64,000 bases of DNA from Nitrospira sp. GTDB lineage: Bacteria; Nitrospirota; Nitrospiria; Nitrospirales; Nitrospiraceae. Under the pieces are notes generated by a model. That model was not told the origin of the DNA. It saw only the letters and a list, made by a program, of their open reading frames with translations, and did no database searches. The DNA lies in NCBI GenBank assembly GCA_016788885.1, contig JAEURX010000052.1, positions 1 through 64,000 on the forward strand, given 5' to 3'. Position 1 is the stretch's first letter. Each line of letters begins with the position of its first letter. Made by a program: the position numbers and the translations under genes. Below, in pieces: positions 4,859-13,865 of the stretch.

Positions 4859-4871
4859 AAGGAGGATCCTT
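4859..4871 (+). promoter_or_regulatory. Shine-Dalgarno sequence in a mini-hairpin
   Basis: AAGGA-GGA-TCCTT is a perfect 5-bp inverted repeat with a 3-base loop, three bases before the ATG at 4874. The 5' arm and loop form the ribosome-binding site AAGGAGGA. The same layout precedes the genes at 10436 and 28179. Confidence 0.45.
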
Positions 4872-4873
4872 CA

Positions 4874-5293
4874 ATGATGTACTCGCGTTTCCACGGTGCC
4901 GTTGTTCTGTCCTTATCTCTGCTCTTGCTGAGTGCCTGTGCGACGGAAGAAACCATGACCAGCAGCGGATCGACGCAAGCCGCATCGGCGAGTGGATCGA
5001 TGAAAGCAGCCGCCACGCAAGCGTACGACTCCCTCCAGTCCTGCCTGAGCCGCATTCCATCCGGGGGCACGGCGGGGACGCGCATGATTGCCGAAGAAAG
5101 TTGCAAGAGAGACGAAACACTCCGCCAAGCCATTGCGGGTAACGCCGCAGCGAAGAGCGGGAACCGCGCCGCGGCCGGTGCTGCCGGCGATAGTTTGGAA
5201 GCCTGCATGGCGCGCATCCCGAAAGACGGGTCGGTTGGGCAGCGGATGCTGGCCGAAGAGAGCTGCAAGCGCGACCAGGCCAACCAGCGGTAA
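4874..5293 (+). CDS. small lipoprotein with a duplicated two-cysteine motif
   Basis: The 139-residue product has a lipoprotein signal peptide with lipobox LSAC (Cys22). The mature part holds two copies of a 29-residue unit at residues 52-80 and 106-134, identical at 19 of 29 positions. Each has two cysteines in the pattern DSL-x2-C-x2-RIP and ends AEESCKRD. The copies are joined by an Ala/Gly/Lys-rich spacer. The start is fixed by the strong AAGGAGGA site and the signal peptide, although the frame is open further upstream. It follows the ABC operon but has its own leader. I do not recognise the family. The cysteine pairs may form disulfides in the periplasm, which is inference. Confidence 0.75.
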   Translation: MMYSRFHGAVVLSLSLLLLSACATEETMTSSGSTQAASASGSMKAAATQAYDSLQSCLSRIPSGGTAGTRMIAEESCKRDETLRQAIAGNAAAKSGNRAAAGAAGDSLEACMARIPKDGSVGQRMLAEESCKRDQANQR

Positions 5294-5399
5294 TCTGACT
5301 TCCAAGTCGATCTCCGACGCGCCTCCGAAGGTGACCATGCCCTTCGGAGGCATGCCTCGCTGTAGACAATCTCACCGGCTTTCAGTATCGTACGACAAC

Positions 5400-5476
5400 G
5401 CCCCCGTAGCTCAGTTGGATAGAGCAGCGGTTTCCTAAACCGCGGGTCGCACGTTCAATTCGTGTCGGGGGCACCA
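5400..5476 (+). tRNA. tRNA-Arg (anticodon CCT)
   Basis: A complete cloverleaf is visible: acceptor GCCCCCG/CGGGGGC, D-stem GCTC/GAGC, anticodon stem GCGGT/ACCGC around loop TTCCTAA, T-arm with TTCAATT, discriminator A and an encoded CCA. It reads AGG codons. Confidence 0.96.
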
Positions 5477-5858
5477 ACCAGCTCGCCTGCGTTTCGTTCA
5501 TCTGACATCATCCCCTGCTGCATCTGATGCCTCAGGCCCTCTCCTTCAGCGGGTTGCCAGCCTTGATCCCCAGATACTCTCGGGAACGGTGCTGTGCTCA
5601 GCTTCACAAACCTAACGTTCGATGCCCTCGAAAGCATTCCGCACACACCGCCGGCCATTCGTACGATCACCCTTAGGCCTTCAGGCTCAGCGCAAAATGT
5701 TCTCATTGCACAGTTCTCTCCCTCGAATTTTGGCCCCTGACCGGATATTTGCGAAGCATGACACATGAGTTATCAGCAGAATCAATAGGTTGTCGCAACT
5801 CAGAACAACGGTACTGAGCTTGCAGTGGAGGCTCCACATAACAAAAGGAGTCCACATC
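5477..5858. other. 382-bp region without a supported gene
   Basis: Nothing convincing was found between tRNA-Arg and the small membrane peptide gene. Open frames here lack ribosome sites and family features. No repeat of the tRNA 3' end, which would mark an integration site, was seen nearby. Confidence 0.5.
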
Positions 5859-5990
5859 ATGATTGAGTTTCCGCTGCTCCTCATAGGTTATGCACTGCTG
5901 CCGATCGTCGCCTTCCAGCTGATGATCATGGCTGACCGCCCTCAGCAGAAGGGCGAGCAAAACGCCTTTCCGCAGGTCGAAATCCTGTAA
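5859..5990 (+). CDS. 43-residue single-pass membrane peptide
   Basis: The frame begins MIEFPLLLIGYALL after a good ribosome site (AAAAGGAG, eight bases before ATG). One hydrophobic helix (about residues 4-24) is followed by a short polar tail ending VEIL. A 13-bp hairpin lies immediately after the stop. The strong ribosome site, clean transmembrane pattern and following hairpin support a real gene. No family is recognised. The start is chosen over an open upstream extension because of the ribosome site. Confidence 0.55.
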   Translation: MIEFPLLLIGYALLPIVAFQLMIMADRPQQKGEQNAFPQVEIL

Positions 5991-5994
5991 GCCT

Positions 5995-6029
5995 GCGGCG
6001 GCTCTGCCCGCCATGAGCAGAGCCGCCGC
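5995..6029 (+). terminator. hairpin after the membrane peptide gene
   Basis: GCGGCGGCTCTGC (5995-6007) pairs perfectly with GCAGAGCCGCCGC (6017-6029) around a 9-base loop. No T-run follows, so it may be a 3' stabilising hairpin or an inefficient intrinsic terminator. Confidence 0.5.
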
Positions 6030-6284
6030 CTTGCGAGGCCAGTATCCGCCCCCTCCCACGACTCACCCGCTACCGATAGTTCAGGCCCCCGGTTTGTCGA
6101 ACAGATCTACCGCCGACACGCGCTCCTCACTTGGTGCGCCTAAGTAGGTAAGGGTATATCGAGACCACGCCAGTACCCAATGGACTCGACGAATACAGCA
6201 GACGTAGGTAGAATTGGTCATGTATACTGTGGCGGAACTAGCGGATACGTGCCCTGCACGCTGCGAGAGCCATTCTTGATAGAG

Positions 6285-7016
6285 ATGCATTTCATGGCAA
6301 ACGGTCGAGGCAAATCCCTTCCCAACGTACCCAGGAAGCCGGCGAATCTATTCAGTAGTTTGGTTCTGCTCCTCCTCGCAACGGCCGGGTGCCATGGATA
6401 TACCCTGGTGGAAACTCCCACGACTGATGGCTTCCATTCCAAGCTGCCCGCGCCCTATACACGGGCCGTCGTCTGGGGCGGGCGCCCCGATACCGCTCAG
6501 AGCGCCAGCACCTGGCTCTTGAAAAAAGGGCTGTTGGTGGTAGACCAAACGAAGGTTCTTCAGACGGCAGCTGACCAGAAAGTCAACCTGTCGGGATATC
6601 AATACCTCGAAACCGATGTACTCCGAATGGCCAAACTGGTCGGTGCCCGCCTAGTAGTTTTCAGCAACGCCGAAGTGGGCTCTTGGGAAGCACTCGATTG
6701 GAGCAACGGATTTCCTCATAGCCAACGAGTGTATTCGGCCACCATTTCCCTACGCGCAGTGGATGTGAATACCGGGGAAATCGAGTGGAGCGGAAAGGCT
6801 CAATCCACGGAACGGTTCAGCAACATTGAGGAGGGCGTTAGCCTACTCACCTGCCATGCGTTAGCGACAGCATGGGGCATGCGCAATCCTGGGGCGACGG
6901 CGCCGGATAATGTGTGCCCCCGGGGGTCCGGTGTCATGATCACTGACACCCACAGACCCTCGACAAACCCGACCTCCTCCGGCCGAGAGAACCTCACACC
7001 ATCAATGAACAATTAG
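6285..7016 (+). CDS. CsgG-like lipoprotein
   Basis: The product has a signal sequence ending in the lipobox ATAGC, then about 150 residues resembling CsgG/curli-assembly-type lipoproteins: a segment on residue-numbered helpers (LLKKGLLVVDQTKV), a variable-location phrase (ARLVVFSNAEVGSW) and strands ending in VNTGEIEWSG, the usual CsgG-like phrase. The C-terminus is a short low-complexity tail. The frame is open from 6180, but TATACT at 6223-6228 would act as a -10 element with transcription from about 6235, so the start is ATG 6285 or ATG 6294. No clear ribosome site helps. The location is probably the outer membrane, facing the periplasm; the function is unknown. CsgG relationship is by phrase similarity only. 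Confidence 0.65.
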   Translation: MHFMANGRGKSLPNVPRKPANLFSSLVLLLLATAGCHGYTLVETPTTDGFHSKLPAPYTRAVVWGGRPDTAQSASTWLLKKGLLVVDQTKVLQTAADQKVNLSGYQYLETDVLRMAKLVGARLVVFSNAEVGSWEALDWSNGFPHSQRVYSATISLRAVDVNTGEIEWSGKAQSTERFSNIEEGVSLLTCHALATAWGMRNPGATAPDNVCPRGSGVMITDTHRPSTNPTSSGRENLTPSMNN

Positions 7017-7132
7017 CGAATTTCACGCACGCCCCCTGCTTGCGCACAAACGTGCTCTTTCTCTCGATTTTTCCTCCCCAGGCGTTATACTAACCGGGTG
7101 ACACACGTCACGATTCCCGGCCGGGGACACGT

Positions 7133-7981
7133 ATGCCCTATCGCCTGCTCATTCTGATCCTATGCCTCTCGCTCCTCTTCCCTCTACCCACGCGCGCTGC
7201 CGACAATCGCCCGTTCTGGACAGAGCAAGCGTTGTTTCATTTCGGAGACGATGTCTTCTTTACCGGCCGCTCCTCCTGTGCCCCTTCGATTGAAGAAGGA
7301 CGTCAACGTGCCTACCTCGCCGCAGTCCAGGAGGTCAGAAATTTCACCCGCGCCAAAGAGATCGAAGGGTTTCCATTGGACACGCAAATGATTTTTGAGG
7401 ACGCCCGTCCTGCGGACTGTGCCCAGGGCTTTGTGACCGTGTGGCGATTGCTGCGAGCACCCAGGACCGCGTTGGAATCGCTCGCAAAACACGCAACGCC
7501 TGGGAAACCGGCAGATATCTCCCCGATCCTTGCGCAAGCCACGGCCATCCGAAACCTCACGCCTCGCGTGGGGATGCTGCGTGACGAGGTCTGGAGCCGT
7601 TACGGATTGCCGCGATCGATCTGGGCGCGACCGGAGCAAGGCGAACTGATTTGGGACTATGCGCAGTTCGGACTAACCATCGTGTTCAACCAGGATGATG
7701 TGTTGACACGATGGCGGCTGAACGGCCCGCATCCACGATCCAGTGACGAGTCCACGGCGCCAGCACTGCAGGCGCCGACCATCGGCAATGATCTGCCAAC
7801 CATCGACCTTACGACTCGACTCCAACAACTCGAAGAACAGCAGGATCAGGAACGCCGTCGAGCCGCTCAGCGCTATTGCTCACTCCGTTTCGCGGAGGTT
7901 CCAGACGCACTACGTCCTAAGCCTGGAGCATGCGAGCAACGGGAATACGAGCGGCTGAAGGAGCAACATCCCCGATTCTGA
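7133..7981 (+). CDS. secreted protein with a BamE/SmpA-like segment
   Basis: The 282-residue product has a signal peptide (cleavage after TRAA, about residue 23). Residues ~145-190 contain a segment of the SmpA/BamE kind: RVGMLRDEVWSRYGLP followed by W-x-Y-x6-F and TRW. The C-terminal part (about 220-280) is charged and helical with a Cys pair. A -10-like TATACT at 7086-7091 lies 41 bp before the ATG. It stands alone between the CsgG-like gene and the receiver gene. It is probably periplasmic; no catalytic motif is visible. The BamE-like assignment is a weak resemblance. Confidence 0.65.
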   Translation: MPYRLLILILCLSLLFPLPTRAADNRPFWTEQALFHFGDDVFFTGRSSCAPSIEEGRQRAYLAAVQEVRNFTRAKEIEGFPLDTQMIFEDARPADCAQGFVTVWRLLRAPRTALESLAKHATPGKPADISPILAQATAIRNLTPRVGMLRDEVWSRYGLPRSIWARPEQGELIWDYAQFGLTIVFNQDDVLTRWRLNGPHPRSSDESTAPALQAPTIGNDLPTIDLTTRLQQLEEQQDQERRRAAQRYCSLRFAEVPDALRPKPGACEQREYERLKEQHPRF

Positions 7982-8018
7982 CGGTGCGGCACGCACAATC
8001 GTTCGGAAGGAGACTGGC

Positions 8019-8513
8019 ATGGCTACGGAAACAGCACGACGCTCGACAATCCTCCTCGTCGACGACGATCCTTCAACCCTGCTGCTGGCGTCAAAACCAC
8101 TGCAGGATCACGGATATACTGTACTCAAGGCGCCAGGAAGCGCCGAAGCGCTCAGGCTATACGCGGAACACCCAACACCCATCCATCTCGTCGTCACCGA
8201 CATCTTCCTCCCACCCCCCGGCTTCCAACTCTCCGTTGAGAAGAATCCCTACCCCCGTGTCAATGGTCTTGAAATGGTCGACCGCCTACTGGAGAACAAA
8301 CGAGATATCCGCATCATTCTGATGTCCAGTACTCCGGGAGCCGACCTACACAGTCGCGGCCTCATCCGGGAGGAATTGCCCTTCTTGAAAAAACCCTTTA
8401 CCGGCGAAGCCCTGCTCATGCTGGTCCAGCAGACACTGGCCGGCCCTCCGGCCGCACCCGCTCCGACGAAGTCCTCCTCAACGGACAAGGGCGACGTCGA
8501 GTGGGTTGACTGA
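8019..8513 (+). CDS. stand-alone receiver domain with a long loop insertion
   Basis: This 164-residue CheY-like protein has the acidic pair DDD near residue 16, phosphoacceptor Asp in VVTDIFLP (about residue 60) and Lys in KKPF (about 126). Between the phosphoacceptor strand and the usual MDG turn there is an insertion of about 15 residues (PPGFQLSVEKNPYPRV before NGLEMV). The switch position is Ser (ILMSS). A short Pro/Ser-rich acidic tail follows. Ribosome site GGAAGGAG is well placed. No kinase is adjacent, so the partner is unknown. It lies upstream of the degenerate nuclease-like gene with a gap of about 100 bp. Confidence 0.85.
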   Translation: MATETARRSTILLVDDDPSTLLLASKPLQDHGYTVLKAPGSAEALRLYAEHPTPIHLVVTDIFLPPPGFQLSVEKNPYPRVNGLEMVDRLLENKRDIRIILMSSTPGADLHSRGLIREELPFLKKPFTGEALLMLVQQTLAGPPAAPAPTKSSSTDKGDVEWVD

Positions 8514-8618
8514 GAGCCGTCACGCGCCCACGCCTACCTGCTGCGACGACGAAAAGCAGGGATTGCTTGTCAGGTCACACTCCCTCGGATAGACTTTTTC
8601 ACCAGAGGTGCACGTCGC

Positions 8619-10316
8619 ATGGCACGAGCAAAAGCCACCGAACCCGTACGCAGCCGGACCAAGCCACAAGTCGTCGAAGAACTCACCCGCGGCATTGCCA
8701 CGCTCCGGGAATTGAGCGTTCAGATCGACGATCTGAGCCGAGACGGATTTCCATACCGGGAAGCCGTCCGCGCAAGAACCGAGCTCTCTTTTCGTGAAAC
8801 GATTCGGCGATTGTTCGGCGAAAAATCGCCCGAATATCAGACACACAAAAACCACAAACTCAAGGTCGGCACTCGTGCGGAATCCACGCACAGCACTGCG
8901 CTCCTGAAGGAATTCATCGCGGCGCTGGAGATTCAGAAAGCCGAGTTGCTTGGTCCCAAGTCTGACGAAATCATCGCCGTCGTCTCGCCAGCACCCGATC
9001 GTCCGTCACTGACAGTGGTTCCACACGCCACTCCACCTGATTCCACGACAGCCCAGCCCGCGCCGAGTCCTGCCCCGCAAATACCCGTACCTACTCCCAG
9101 TGCCCCTGCGCCTACTACGGTGGCGGCCGCCACCATCAGCCCGTCTCTCTCGGCCGTTCCCCCAAGCATCACACCCGCACCGATTGTCGCTCCAGCTTCA
9201 CCGCCGCCGGTCATGGAAGTCGCGCCCCAGCCCTCGCGTGACACAGTACGCCCTCGGCCAACTCAGCAAGCACCGTCTGGCAATTCAGCCTCAGTTGAGA
9301 CCGCAGTCGTCTCGCAGGTTGCCCTGCCCCAACCGTCGGTCGCGTCACCGGTGCCCGCCACCACTGCTGCCCCGACCACGCCGTCCTCAACGACCAGTTC
9401 CACGACAAGCACGGCCTCAGAGGCATTGATCCCTACGGGAACACTCCCTCCGGTCACACCGACGGCGAGGGCCATTCCCTCAGGAACCATTCCGCCTGTT
9501 CCACACACGACCTTGCGCCCAAAGCTCTCGCCGGTTGCCAGCACGGAATCCTTGACACCCGCTCAACCGGCACCAATCGTCACCACTCCCCAGTTGTCGA
9601 CATCCACTCCCATTTCTACGCCACCACCGGCCGCTGCCCCACCGGTGGCTGCACCGACGAGCACCGTAGGACTCGTGCCGACTCCCGAAGTGCGCCACAT
9701 GATTCCGCCCACTCAGATGCCGGAACCAACCGGTACCACACCCACACCTCGACAGGAGACATCCACTCCCCAAGCCGTGGCGCAAATGGCCCCACAGGTC
9801 CAACCACCCACGCCCGCGCCGAGTCAGTCCACGGCTCCAGCAAAGGCCCAAGAAGAAAGCGGAACCCTCGAGGTGTTGAGAAGGGTGTGCGCGCGATTTC
9901 ACCTGGTCGCTCGCCAGCTGCGACTCAGAAAGGAATATCGCCCAACGCTGGAAATCAACGACGAATACGATCTCCAAGACCTCTTTTACGCGCTCCTGCG
10001 CCTGCAGTTTGATGAGGTCGGCACGGATGACTGGTCGCCACCGTATGCAAACGGCACACAGCGGACCAGCTATCTTCTCGACTGGGGGAAGACAGTGGTG
10101 GTCGTCAAACAAACCCGCTCAGGCCTGTCGAGCAAGGATCTGGCCGAGCAGATTGCAGCGGACAAGAGTCATTACGCGGCTCGACCGGATGCCGCCACCC
10201 TGGTGTGCTTCATCTACGATCCGGAGGGCCGAGTGGGAAACCCACGTGGGCTGGAAGCCGATTTGACCACCGCCGAGCCACGGTATCGAGTCGAAGTCCT
10301 CGTCGCGCCGAAATAA
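8619..10316 (+). CDS. Pro/Thr-rich linker protein with a degenerate PD-(D/E)XK-like domain
   Basis: The 565-residue protein has three parts. Residues 1-115 are a charged helical N-domain. Residues ~120-410 are an extreme Pro/Ser/Thr/Ala linker. Residues ~413-565 resemble a restriction-endonuclease-like family with phrases DEYDLQDL (448-455), LVCFIYDPEGRVGNPRGLE and VEVLVAP. In the family as I remember it, the core reads R-x-D-F-L-L then (I/V)EVKKTR. Here these positions are RTSYLL and VVVVKQTR, so the catalytic Asp is Ser484 and the Glu of E-x-K is Val495, while Lys497 remains. Nuclease activity is therefore unlikely and the domain may bind nucleic acid or act as a scaffold. Start is ATG with AGAGGTG upstream. 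Family consensus is from memory and should be checked by alignment. Confidence 0.75.
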   Translation: MARAKATEPVRSRTKPQVVEELTRGIATLRELSVQIDDLSRDGFPYREAVRARTELSFRETIRRLFGEKSPEYQTHKNHKLKVGTRAESTHSTALLKEFIAALEIQKAELLGPKSDEIIAVVSPAPDRPSLTVVPHATPPDSTTAQPAPSPAPQIPVPTPSAPAPTTVAAATISPSLSAVPPSITPAPIVAPASPPPVMEVAPQPSRDTVRPRPTQQAPSGNSASVETAVVSQVALPQPSVASPVPATTAAPTTPSSTTSSTTSTASEALIPTGTLPPVTPTARAIPSGTIPPVPHTTLRPKLSPVASTESLTPAQPAPIVTTPQLSTSTPISTPPPAAAPPVAAPTSTVGLVPTPEVRHMIPPTQMPEPTGTTPTPRQETSTPQAVAQMAPQVQPPTPAPSQSTAPAKAQEESGTLEVLRRVCARFHLVARQLRLRKEYRPTLEINDEYDLQDLFYALLRLQFDEVGTDDWSPPYANGTQRTSYLLDWGKTVVVVKQTRSGLSSKDLAEQIAADKSHYAARPDAATLVCFIYDPEGRVGNPRGLEADLTTAEPRYRVEVLVAPK

Positions 10317-10418
10317 CGGCCCCGCGCCGCTGATTCAGCGCAGGGTTTGTTGACTTCATCCGGAGCAATCCGATAGGTTTCGACCCGTGGGACGCGCTCG
10401 TCCGCGCCACACCACTTC

Positions 10419-10433
10419 AAGGGAGAATCCCTT
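10419..10433 (+). promoter_or_regulatory. Shine-Dalgarno sequence inside a perfect hairpin
   Basis: AAGGGA-GAA-TCCCTT is a perfect 6-bp inverted repeat with a 3-base loop, ending two bases before the ATG at 10436. The ribosome-binding site AAGGGAG is on the 5' arm. Confidence 0.5.
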
Positions 10434-10435
10434 CT

Positions 10436-10690
10436 ATGCCCGACCGAGCCTACGTCTTGATCAATGTCCATCCTGGCCAGACCGCCGACGTCGTGAAAGC
10501 CTTGTCGGACATTAAAGAGATCAAACAAATCGACCCCTGCTGGGGCAAGCCCGACATTTTCACGATCGTGGAAATTCCCCATCAAGACGCCTTGACTCAG
10601 CTGGTGTTGGCAAAAATTCATGCCATTCCCGGTGTCGATCAGACGGACACACACATGGTCTATCGGCTGCAAGAAGGTAAGCCCAAATGA
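10436..10690 (+). CDS. stand-alone AsnC/Lrp ligand-binding (RAM) domain protein
   Basis: The 84-residue product is the C-terminal ligand-binding domain of Lrp/AsnC regulators without a helix-turn-helix. Visible features are the strands AYVLINVHPG, the GKPDIFTIVEI turn and the IHAIPGVDQTDTH segment. Such stand-alone domains form oligomers that bind amino acids or other small effectors. Its role here is unknown. The stop overlaps the next start (ATGA), so it is co-translated with the lipoprotein that follows. Translation may be limited by the leader hairpin at 10419-10433. Confidence 0.88.
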   Translation: MPDRAYVLINVHPGQTADVVKALSDIKEIKQIDPCWGKPDIFTIVEIPHQDALTQLVLAKIHAIPGVDQTDTHMVYRLQEGKPK

Positions 10691-11133
10691 GTTGGAGACG
10701 GCCACGCACGGCGGCCATCCTGTTCATCGCGGCGATTGCCGGTTGTGCCACTGCCCATCCCACTCCGGAACCGGACGTGATGGAAGTGACGCTTCAGGCC
10801 CCTGCCGATCAGGTGAAAGCTGCCGTCGCCGATGTCCTCACGCAAGGAGGCTACTCGGTCGATGAGGACGAGACCGGCAATGTGACGACGGGAATGAGGC
10901 GGGAGGTCAGCAGTCCGTGGAACTGGTTGCTGCGATGGAGATTCGGTGTCGGTAAGAGCCGGGTGGAAGCGCGGGTTGTTCCACAGGATGAGACCACGAC
11001 CCGGCTGCGGCTCCAGGTCTTTCACCGTGGGAAAGACGGCCTCTTCGACACATGGGAAGATGCGGAAACGCCCCTGCCCCAAAGCGCCGCGAATGAAATT
11101 CGGCGAATCAAGAACGTACTTCGATTATTGTAG
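10687..11133 (+). CDS. small lipoprotein, unknown function
   Basis: The 148-residue product has a signal peptide with lipobox AIAGC (about Cys20). The mature domain looks like an alpha/beta fold: a long helix with APADQVKAAVADVLTQGGY, then strands such as GNVTTGMRR, SRVEARVV and TTRLRLQVFH. This order resembles small outer-membrane lipoproteins that track insoluble or damaged envelope components, but no named family is assigned. It overlaps the AsnC-like gene by 4 bp and its 3' end faces the sigma-54 regulator gene, 7 bp away. Confidence 0.75.
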   Translation: MSWRRPRTAAILFIAAIAGCATAHPTPEPDVMEVTLQAPADQVKAAVADVLTQGGYSVDEDETGNVTTGMRREVSSPWNWLLRWRFGVGKSRVEARVVPQDETTTRLRLQVFHRGKDGLFDTWEDAETPLPQSAANEIRRIKNVLRLL

Positions 11134-11140
11134 CCTCGGG

Positions 11141-12535
11141 CTACTTCTCCTCCCCCTCATCGCCGAAATCCAAGCCGAACCGCTCCGCCATCCGATACAA
11201 CGTTCGCCGATCGATCCCGAGAATCTTCGCCGCTTTGACTTTGTTTCCCCGCGTCTCCTTGAGCACCCGAGAGAGATGCCGCTTTTCGACTTCGTCCAAG
11301 GTCAATAAGGCTTCGGGATCCGGGTCCCCGTCACTCCCTTTGTGAACCATCGATGAATCCGGTTCAGCACGGATCGACTCAGGGAGGTCGTCAGGCAACA
11401 ACAGCGGCCCATGACTAAGGGAGACGGCCCGCTCAACCGCATTTTCCAACTCCCGCACATTTCCCGGCCAATGATAGCGCCTGAGAAGGGCCATGGTTTC
11501 AGGCATAAAACCACGCACGTGCGTCGCCTGCTTGGCATACTTCTGCAGAAAATGGTGGGCGAGCATCGGAATGTCTTCCCGCCGCTCGGCCAACGATGGC
11601 AGCGCGATCCGAACCACGTTCAAGCGGTAATACAAGTCATCGCGGAACTTGCCGTCTTTCACCTGAGCAGCCAGGTCTCGGTTGGTCGCGGCAATAATGC
11701 GTACGTCGACCTTCACCGACGAGGTACTCCCGACCCGCCGCACCTCATGTTCCTGCATCACACGCAACAATTTGACCTGCAGCGCCTGACCGAGATCCCC
11801 GATCTCATCAAGAAACAAGGTGCCGCCGTTGGCAGCTTCAAACAATCCTCCCTTGGATCCCACAGCTCCCGTAAACGCCCCCTTTTCATATCCGAACATT
11901 TCAGACTCAAGCAGGTGATCAGGCAATGCCCCGCAGTTCACCGGAATGAATGGCTTATCACGACGCGGGCTGTTGAGATGCACCGCCCGCGCAATCAATT
12001 CCTTCCCGGTTCCGCTTTCCCCCTCGATCAGCACCGTACTGCGCCCATCGGACACACGAGCCACGAGCTTGTACACCTCCAACATGGCCGGACTGCTGCC
12101 CACCAAGTGCGACCAGGGTTCGCGGGCTCGCGCCTCGTCGCGAAAACGGGCGTTCTCCCGCACGAGCCGGCAATGTTCCAAACTCCGCTGTACGACCAGG
12201 CGAATATCATCTCGCTTGAAGGGTTTGGCCAGGTAGTCATACGCGCCCTGCTTAATCGCCTCGATCGCGCCCTCCAACGAACCAAACGCGGTCAGCAACA
12301 CGATGGACGTATCCGGACTAAACCGTTTGAATTCCTTCAGCACCAGGAATCCGTCACCCTGCTCCATTCGAATGTCGGTCAAGACCACGTCCGGCTGGGC
12401 TTGCCGTCCACGTTCTACCGCAGCCTGACCGCTGGCAAACGCTTCGACCTCGTACCCTTCCTTCGCCAGCGCTTCGGCCAATAAGGTCCGCGCCGCCTCA
12501 TCGTCGTCGACCACAAACAGTTTTGCCTGGCTCAT
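11141..12535 (-). CDS. sigma-54-dependent response regulator (NtrC/ZraR family)
   Basis: The 464-residue product has a receiver domain (residues ~5-120; phosphoacceptor Asp in VVLTDIRM), an AAA+ domain (~145-380) with Walker A GESGTGKE, an intact GAFTGA sigma-54 contact loop and Walker [11 protein letters not shown], and a C-terminal Fis-type helix-turn-helix ([20 protein letters not shown]). It should activate RpoN-dependent promoters on phosphorylation. The upstream gene, 13 bp away, is its likely sensor kinase. The ATG is preceded by TAGGAG. Confidence 0.95.
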
Positions 12536-12548
12536 CAGCGTTCTGCTC

Positions 12549-13700
12549 CTACGTTGCCACCGACTCCGACGGCATGCCGGGAAGCACCACCGTCACCGCC
12601 GTCCCCGTTCCCAATTCACTCTCCAGCGTCAGATCTCCGCCATGGGCAACGACCGCCTCGCGACTCAGGAACAGCCCCAAGCCCGTTCCCTTCCCGATCG
12701 CTTTAGTCGTAAAAAAGGGCTGAAAGGCACGCTCCACGTCGTCCCGTGGCATTCCACACCCGGAATCGGACACGACGAGCGTCACCACGGTCTCGAGATC
12801 GGATCGGCCTGTGCATGCGGCGCGCTCGCGTTCATCCCCCGAGGCCGGCCGTATGGCTGCAGTCACCGTCACCTGCCCGTCTGTCCCGGTCGCGGCTAAC
12901 GCATTGGTGAGGAGATTGACCAACACTTGATGGATCTTCTCGGGATCGGCCCAAACCAACAGCGACGGGGACACCTTCGAGTGAAGCACCACCCCCTTGG
13001 CATGATATCCCGGTTCCATCAATGCCATGACCGGCTCAATCAGGCGTTCAGCCGGATACCAGGTCGGCTCCGGCCTGCGCTGCCTGGTGGAGGAGAGAAG
13101 ATCTTGAATGATCCGCACCACACGATTCAACTGTTCCTCGATGATGCCGATACGCTTGTGCATCTCCGGAGTGACGCCCGACTCCTCCGCCAACGCTTCG
13201 ACATGCCAGGCGATAGAATGCAACGGCGTTCCGACCTCGTGCGCCACCGAGGCCACCAACTGCCCCACCGTGGCCAACCTCTCCGACCGCGCGAGTTTGT
13301 CCTTGATCTCTACCAGCTGGGTGTTCGCCCGCAGGAGGTGTTCCGTCTGCGTGGCCAAGGCAGCCTGGGCTGCCTCCTCGCGGGCCTTGCGCTCCTCCCA
13401 CGTCACGCCGATATAGGCGACGCCGGTTAGGACGCATACCACCATGATGCGATTGAACACGACCGTCGTGAACCGTTCCTTTTTCTTGGCCGGTTGGAAG
13501 AGACCGACGAACGTCACGAGGATGCACAGGGCCAGGGTCACGATCATGAGTCCACGATTGCGCACCGTGGCCACCAACAGAATCGGCAGCACAAATCCGA
13601 ATGCCCCCACGACATTCAACGGGAACATCCACTCCATCACCGTGACGAGCAAAAACAGCAACGCCGCGATGACCAGCACCACCTGATTCCGACTCTTCAT
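12549..13700 (-). CDS. membrane sensor histidine kinase
   Basis: The product (383 residues from ATG 13700) begins with a membrane region of about four helices (residues ~7-100), followed by a coiled coil and a HisKA domain with phosphoacceptor His in SVAHEVGTPLHS, then an HATPase domain with an N-box NLLTNALAA, DSGCGM and GKGTGLGL. No periplasmic sensor or PAS domain is seen, so sensing may involve the membrane part. The start is fixed by GGAGGGGG before ATG; the open frame further upstream is not coding-like. It should phosphorylate the regulator encoded just downstream. Confidence 0.92.
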   Translation of the reverse strand: MKSRNQVVLVIAALLFLLVTVMEWMFPLNVVGAFGFVLPILLVATVRNRGLMIVTLALCILVTFVGLFQPAKKKERFTTVVFNRIMVVCVLTGVAYIGVTWEERKAREEAAQAALATQTEHLLRANTQLVEIKDKLARSERLATVGQLVASVAHEVGTPLHSIAWHVEALAEESGVTPEMHKRIGIIEEQLNRVVRIIQDLLSSTRQRRPEPTWYPAERLIEPVMALMEPGYHAKGVVLHSKVSPSLLVWADPEKIHQVLVNLLTNALAATGTDGQVTVTAAIRPASGDERERAACTGRSDLETVVTLVVSDSGCGMPRDDVERAFQPFFTTKAIGKGTGLGLFLSREAVVAHGGDLTLESELGTGTAVTVVLPGMPSESVAT

Positions 13701-13865
13701 GCCCCCTCCGCGCCGAGCCGCGTGCAGGGCGCTGCGGGTCGAGTACGACGCATCACATGATTTCTGTGGGTAGGGACGGCACTGGCTGGAAGGCAACAGG
13801 CATGAGTGATCGCGAGCAGGTCGGTGCGCGACGGCCCAGCGCATGAACGGAAACGCGTGCCTGGC

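Follow-up and report, generated by a model that had tools for sequence, protein, structure and literature searches.

A DpnII-MboI family protein with lost catalytic acids, and probably no nuclease activity, at a fixed locus of the Nitrospiraceae

The stretch of Nitrospira sp. DNA analysed here (contig JAEURX010000052.1, positions 1 to 64,000; the whole 64,000 nucleotides are called the window below) contains a gene for a 565-residue protein, P0001, in which a PD-(D/E)XK domain of the DpnII-MboI family lacks its catalytic Asp and Glu and is joined to a helical N-terminal domain by a long disordered tether. Comparison with active-type relatives makes it very probable that nuclease activity has been lost, and the protein would thus no longer cleave. 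The evidence leans somewhat towards a non-catalytic binder or sensor, acting through a ligand that we infer to be nucleic acid or a nucleotide. The parts of the gene are as follows.

8619 to 10316, forward strand: gene P0001, a probable 565-residue pseudonuclease; an open reading frame with start-to-end orthologs across Nitrospiraceae.
8619 to 8669, forward strand: residues 1–17, a short basic tail (MARAK..RSRTK) conserved in most orthologs.
8670 to 8954, forward strand: residues 18–112, helical N-domain, from the AlphaFold (AF2) model and hhalign comparison with the N-domain of active DpnII-MboI proteins.
8955 to 9833, forward strand: residues 113–405, disordered tether rich in P, T, A and S, from pLDDT (about 42–55) and composition.
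9834 to 10313, forward strand: residues 406–565, degenerate PF18742 (DpnII-MboI) PD-(D/E)XK domain, from Pfam, AF2 and fold matches.
10068 to 10070, forward strand: codon of Ser484, at the catalytic Asp position (D in 25 of 25 active-type relatives and 10 of 105 Nitrospiraceae sequences).
10101 to 10103, forward strand: codon of Val495, at the catalytic Glu position (E in 25 of 25 and 2 of 105).
10107 to 10109, forward strand: codon of Lys497, the catalytic Lys, retained (K in 98 of 105 Nitrospiraceae sequences).

The frame has no internal stop. Its ATG at 8619 is backed by the MARAK-type start conserved in orthologs, and an AGAGGTG stretch lies directly upstream. A scan for promoters and terminators gave nothing above chance.

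The sequence-only reading of this DNA had described the C-terminal part as a nuclease-like domain of the PD-(D/E)XK family, and both sequence and model bear this out. The C-terminal 147 residues (419–565) match Pfam PF18742 with 172.1 bits (E 7e-51, model positions 2–150 of 150), for which the gathering cut-off is 27 bits. In the AF2 model, built with 50 orthologs, this domain is predicted with pLDDT mostly above 90 and has the PD-(D/E)XK core topology (helix 449–463, strands 467–472, 482–487 and 492–498, helix 505–520, strands 527–533 and 557–563). Structural comparison (VIA-align) gave BstYI (Z 8.4), BglII (7.7), OkrAI (6.8), McrC (6.8) and Can2 (6.2), with EcoT38I and EndoMS also among the matches; the Z range is modest (5.5–8.4), and most of the matches are PD-(D/E)XK folds. 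The model of an active paralog agrees in topology and in the enzymes nearest to it (BstYI, BglII and BamHI). Foldseek by itself returned nothing at E <0.001 for either model, and a search of the C-domain sequence against solved structures gave a single chance fibronectin match only.

Ser484 is on the second core strand of the model (482–487), and Val495 and Lys497 are on the third (492–498), these being the strands expected to carry D, E and K. The second-strand catalytic Asp is therefore absent, and the third-strand (D/E)-x-K reads V495-V-K497. That only the Lys of the triad is kept had been claimed from the sequence, with an AlphaFold model and an alignment with active relatives suggested as checks; both place the residues as claimed. 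The alignment contains 130 distinct domains, namely 25 relatives and 105 Nitrospiraceae sequences. The 25 active-type relatives were selected for having D-E-K, so that D and E are invariant in them (25/25); the presence or absence of a Nitrospiraceae-type N-domain is an independent test and gives the same split, the exceptions being a few Nitrospiraceae copies that lack their N-terminal part because the contig ends or the frame is broken there. The full triad is found in none of the 105 Nitrospiraceae sequences. Position 484 is T, S, A or M in 90 of them and position 495 is V, I or L in 97, and the D and E that survive in a minority never occur together.

The loss is narrow. Of the acidic columns that at least 80% of the active relatives share, conservation in Nitrospiraceae falls under half at 484, 495 and 524 and at no other. 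Since D448, D451, D454, D515, D534 and E546 stay at 99–100%, the loss is aimed at the metal site; judged from the alignment, it is a selective loss of that site and not general decay. Some of the surface columns that the active relatives conserve, R468, K488 and H522-P523-D524, are also lost, and for this reason the DNA-contact surface may have changed as well.

The retained acids could be taken to mean that the protein is still a nuclease whose metal site has shifted and now consists of D448, D451 and D454 together with K497 and either D515 or D534. Residue migration does occur in the PD-(D/E)XK superfamily, the five acids vary hardly or not at all, and 93% of the sequences keep K497. However, the D-E-K relatives conserve these acids just as strictly; the conservation is thus older than the loss, and no new role has to be invoked for it. 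Acids were gained only at columns 439 and 559, with none fixed beside the metal site, and the residues that predominate at 484 and 495 suggest a pocket that has been repacked rather than re-liganded. We therefore regard a shifted site as improbable.

A second alternative is that the C-domain is a protein–protein scaffold with no nucleic-acid role, tying the N-domain and a partner together via the tether. Such a scaffold would account for the invariant residues retained at a distance from that pair of catalytic acids (R437, R441, T499, F531, YDPEGR and P542), for the loss of some basic positions of the active relatives and for a C-domain net charge that is not basic. It would not need the basic residues at or near the former active site, and yet K497, R482 and R500 are kept basic in 85–97% of sequences; we consider a pure scaffold unlikely, though worth keeping in mind. 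Net charge was itself considered as a sign of DNA binding and set aside as not diagnostic, the C-domain median of −2 being like that of the active relatives. The same applies to the basic N-terminal tail, with a median net charge of +4 in 50 orthologs compared with +2.5 in active relatives.

The N-domain is predicted by AF2 as a confident four-helix domain (pLDDT about 90–96; helices 15–39, 47–66, 71–76 and 86–110). When aligned by hhalign with the N-domain of the active relatives, it gave a probability of 91 and a score of 39; 200 controls with shuffled columns reached no more than 6.5 and 20. The active relatives' N-domain was missed by a single-pass HMM of the Nitrospiraceae one and recovered by the profile–profile comparison alone. 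By this comparison the P0001 N-domain shares its ancestry with the helical N-domain found in active members of the DpnII-MboI family, which implies that the architecture is the ancestral one with a tether inserted. Fold matches of the N-domain (FliS, designed bundles and sensor domains) were discarded as common helical-bundle arrangements. The PADLOC candidate PDC-S35 covers the N-domain in the active relatives and is marginal on P0001 (E 0.015). It is worth adding that another Nitrospiraceae protein (L077:2434-3420, reverse strand) joins a related N-domain to a Hypoth_Ymh (HEPN) domain, which would fit an N-domain that is exchanged among defence effectors as a module. Fusions of a helical DpnII/MboI-NTD to various effectors have been described (PMC3710099).

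The intervening linker of about 290 residues (approximately 113–405) had been picked out as extremely rich in Pro and Thr, and it is indeed the composition outlier of the window as well as being modelled as disordered. P, T, A and S make up 66% of residues 117–412, and the best 150-residue stretch reaches 71%, compared with at most 38% in the other long open frames of the window. Its length varies from 43 to 308 residues among orthologs. The shortest tethers (43–116 residues) are mostly in the deep members that retain a single acid, and some of the longest are found in the genus of the window, with a maximum of 308. An origin by repeat expansion was rejected, there being no tandem repeats in the DNA.

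Matches to P0001, either full-length or domain-level, occur in 74 sampled genomes, all within Nitrospiraceae; three of these are not orthologs, one genome (G002) having the active-type copy only and two (G046, G074) matching by the N-domain or linker only. In an even sample of the phylum, PF18742 is present in 41 of 46 genomes of the family and 6 of 152 in the rest, and an intact D..E-x-K was found in the two of these six that were read. The gene is at one syntenic locus in about nine tenths of the sampled Nitrospiraceae genomes, and the frame is intact in nearly all orthologs. Two Nitrospira-type pseudonucleases come from bins labelled otherwise, Phycisphaerales (L100) and Nitrosospira (L110, which carries the whole syntenic locus); because of this content, the bins are probably mislabelled or contaminated.

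The active-type relatives, of about 260 residues, come from plasmids, ICE and viral contigs or prophage in several phyla, and some adjoin AbiE-type or TIR-domain genes. A tblastn search with the C-domain against phages gave no match. Candidatus Nitrospira defluvii has a D-E-K copy of about 264 residues (L148:5665-6456) besides the long form, and a further separate D-E-K copy of that length is found in one other Nitrospira genome (L135:1418-2209); the two provide natural active-type controls. Family members on enterobacterial plasmids (L166, L168) are annotated as 'malate dehydrogenase', apparently a propagated mis-annotation.

With the three catalytic columns left out of the alignment, a maximum-likelihood tree places all the Nitrospiraceae long-form sequences on one side of a branch with an SH-aLRT of 100. 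Within this clade, ten deep members keep D and lack E (L052, L058, L061, L064, L065, L067, L068, L073, L074 and L075), and two keep E and have lost D (L066, L069). As no sequence has both, inactivation would have happened more than once within the one clade, and the simplest reading of the alignment is that the ancestor had both acids and that lineages lost them separately. The tree requires at least three changes at 484 and at least three at 495, although it is a quick tree with long-branched deep rows and the exact count is unsure.

These different routes of loss, and the absence of the gene from some genomes, might suggest a defence gene that is drifting to a pseudogene now that catalysis is gone. 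The pattern of substitution argues strongly against this. Within the genus, the median NG86 dN/dS is 0.086 for the C-domain and 0.076 for the N-domain (rough values, as dS is near 1), which shows that purifying selection acts strongly on the protein even though it lacks its catalytic acids. With frames intact in nearly all orthologs and a deep, family-wide clade, decay is very unlikely. The suggestion from the sequence that the protein has been repurposed is supported by this selection, together with vertical inheritance and fixed synteny.

The neighbouring genes that define the locus are these.

8019 to 8513, forward strand: receiver-only response regulator with a conserved loop insert (PF00072; synteny; alignment).
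10436 to 10690, forward strand: stand-alone Lrp/AsnC ligand-binding (RAM) protein of 84 residues, the next gene downstream (PF01037, 42.3 bits).
10687 to 11133, forward strand: small lipoprotein gene, a conserved neighbour (synteny).
11141 to 12535, reverse strand: sigma-54 response regulator, convergent, which marks the fixed locus (synteny).

The order is pseudonuclease, RAM, lipoprotein, convergent sigma-54 regulator, kinase and malQ, with the receiver upstream of the pseudonuclease in the genus and in some other lineages. The unusual loop noticed earlier in this receiver proved on alignment to be a conserved insert of about 15 residues (FLPPPxFQLSVxxNPYPRVNG) that follows the phospho-acceptor Asp and is shared by orthologs in several Nitrospiraceae lineages. 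The RAM gene, which the open reading frame list omits at its size setting, adjoins the pseudonuclease in nearly all orthologous loci. At loci without the Nitrospiraceae N-domain it is found in only 3 of the 31 with room for it, and those three are judged to be contig-cut Nitrospiraceae copies. In eight genomes, some of them nearly complete, the pseudonuclease is missing and its slot is empty, with the RAM-lipoprotein-sigma-54 block intact. The pseudonuclease is therefore dispensable and its neighbours do not need it; either it is an addition to an older block, or it has been lost from the block without harm to it. RAM was also considered as an obligate partner, and this was rejected as RAM persists where the pseudonuclease is absent.

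No methyltransferase domain was found among the Pfam-scanned neighbours (selected genes within 4871–13844), no Argonaute among these or the conserved neighbours of the orthologs, and the genes conserved around the locus include none for defence. This bears on the idea that the protein is anti-phage, a non-catalytic sensor or decoy of phage nucleic acid that signals through its N-domain. The mobile settings of the active relatives, some beside AbiE-type or TIR-domain genes, fit such a role, as do the PDC-S35 match of their N-domain and the HEPN fusion in a Nitrospiraceae protein. Against this, the gene sits at a fixed chromosomal locus beside two-component and lipoprotein genes with no conserved defence neighbours, and near-universal vertical inheritance is unusual for a defence gene. 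On these grounds we think an anti-phage role has little probability.

On the basis of these observations, we return to the non-catalytic binder or sensor and suggest how it may have arisen and may work. An early ancestor of the Nitrospiraceae would have acquired a DpnII/MboI-type defence nuclease in its chromosome, beside the RAM-lipoprotein and sigma-54 two-component locus. The metal-binding Asp and Glu would then have been lost, independently in more than one lineage, and a growing disordered tether gained between the two domains. In the present-day protein the C-domain would bind its ligand, a nucleic acid or a nucleotide, and leave it uncut, and the helical N-domain would hold a partner or self-associate. 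The tether would join the two at a variable distance and so might act bivalently. The full history, a mobile defence nuclease domesticated once to become a dead, tethered nucleic-acid or nucleotide sensor, with the acids lost in several lineages as the tether lengthened and with a regulatory duty beside the RAM and two-component genes, is put forward tentatively, as one possibility; any regulatory link to the neighbours would be part of that proposal.

The closest known proteins are the PF18742 proteins of about 260 residues, such as the D-E-K copy of Candidatus N. defluvii. They share with the P0001 family the helical N-domain and PD-(D/E)XK C-domain in the same order, as well as R437, R441, D448, D451, D454, K497, T499, D515 and the YDP.G motif. 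They differ in their intact D-E-K, in having next to no linker and in their location on mobile elements, whereas the Nitrospiraceae form is without D and E, has a disordered tether of 43–308 residues, and is syntenic and vertically inherited. DpnII/MboI-like enzymes and BstYI, BglII and BamHI, with which P0001 has the PD-(D/E)XK fold in common and which are among its best structural matches, are active and usually accompanied by a cognate methyltransferase; P0001 has none among the neighbours scanned. The Argonaute-associated helical REase (PADLOC Aga_Helical-REase) has a homologous REase domain, which matches that of P0001 with 74 bits, but P0001 has lost the metal-site acids and has no Argonaute in the neighbours examined.

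Domains of this fold that lack catalysis and bind or sense nucleic acid, or are proposed to, occur in EME1, FAAP24 and RecC. Pseudonucleases are already known in the PD-(D/E)XK superfamily, and the inactive domains of the BREX-related BrxHII / RapA helicases have been proposed as nucleotide or nucleic-acid sensors (PMC12839542). All of these are parts of helicases or of nuclease partners; P0001 differs from the helicase-linked inactive REase domains in that it is a DpnII-MboI protein in its own right and carries a long tether. A DpnII-MboI pseudonuclease that stands alone, occurs family-wide at a syntenic locus, has a long disordered tether and has lost its acids repeatedly is undescribed in the literature searched, which was covered in part.

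The protein shows clearly how a defence nuclease has become a conserved protein with, apparently, no enzymatic activity, in a family of environmentally important nitrite oxidisers. Material for comparison survives: active-type relatives are still present, one of them in the same genome as the long form (Candidatus N. defluvii), and intermediates keep D or E alone. Together they form a natural series for asking what role a restriction fold has once cutting is lost.
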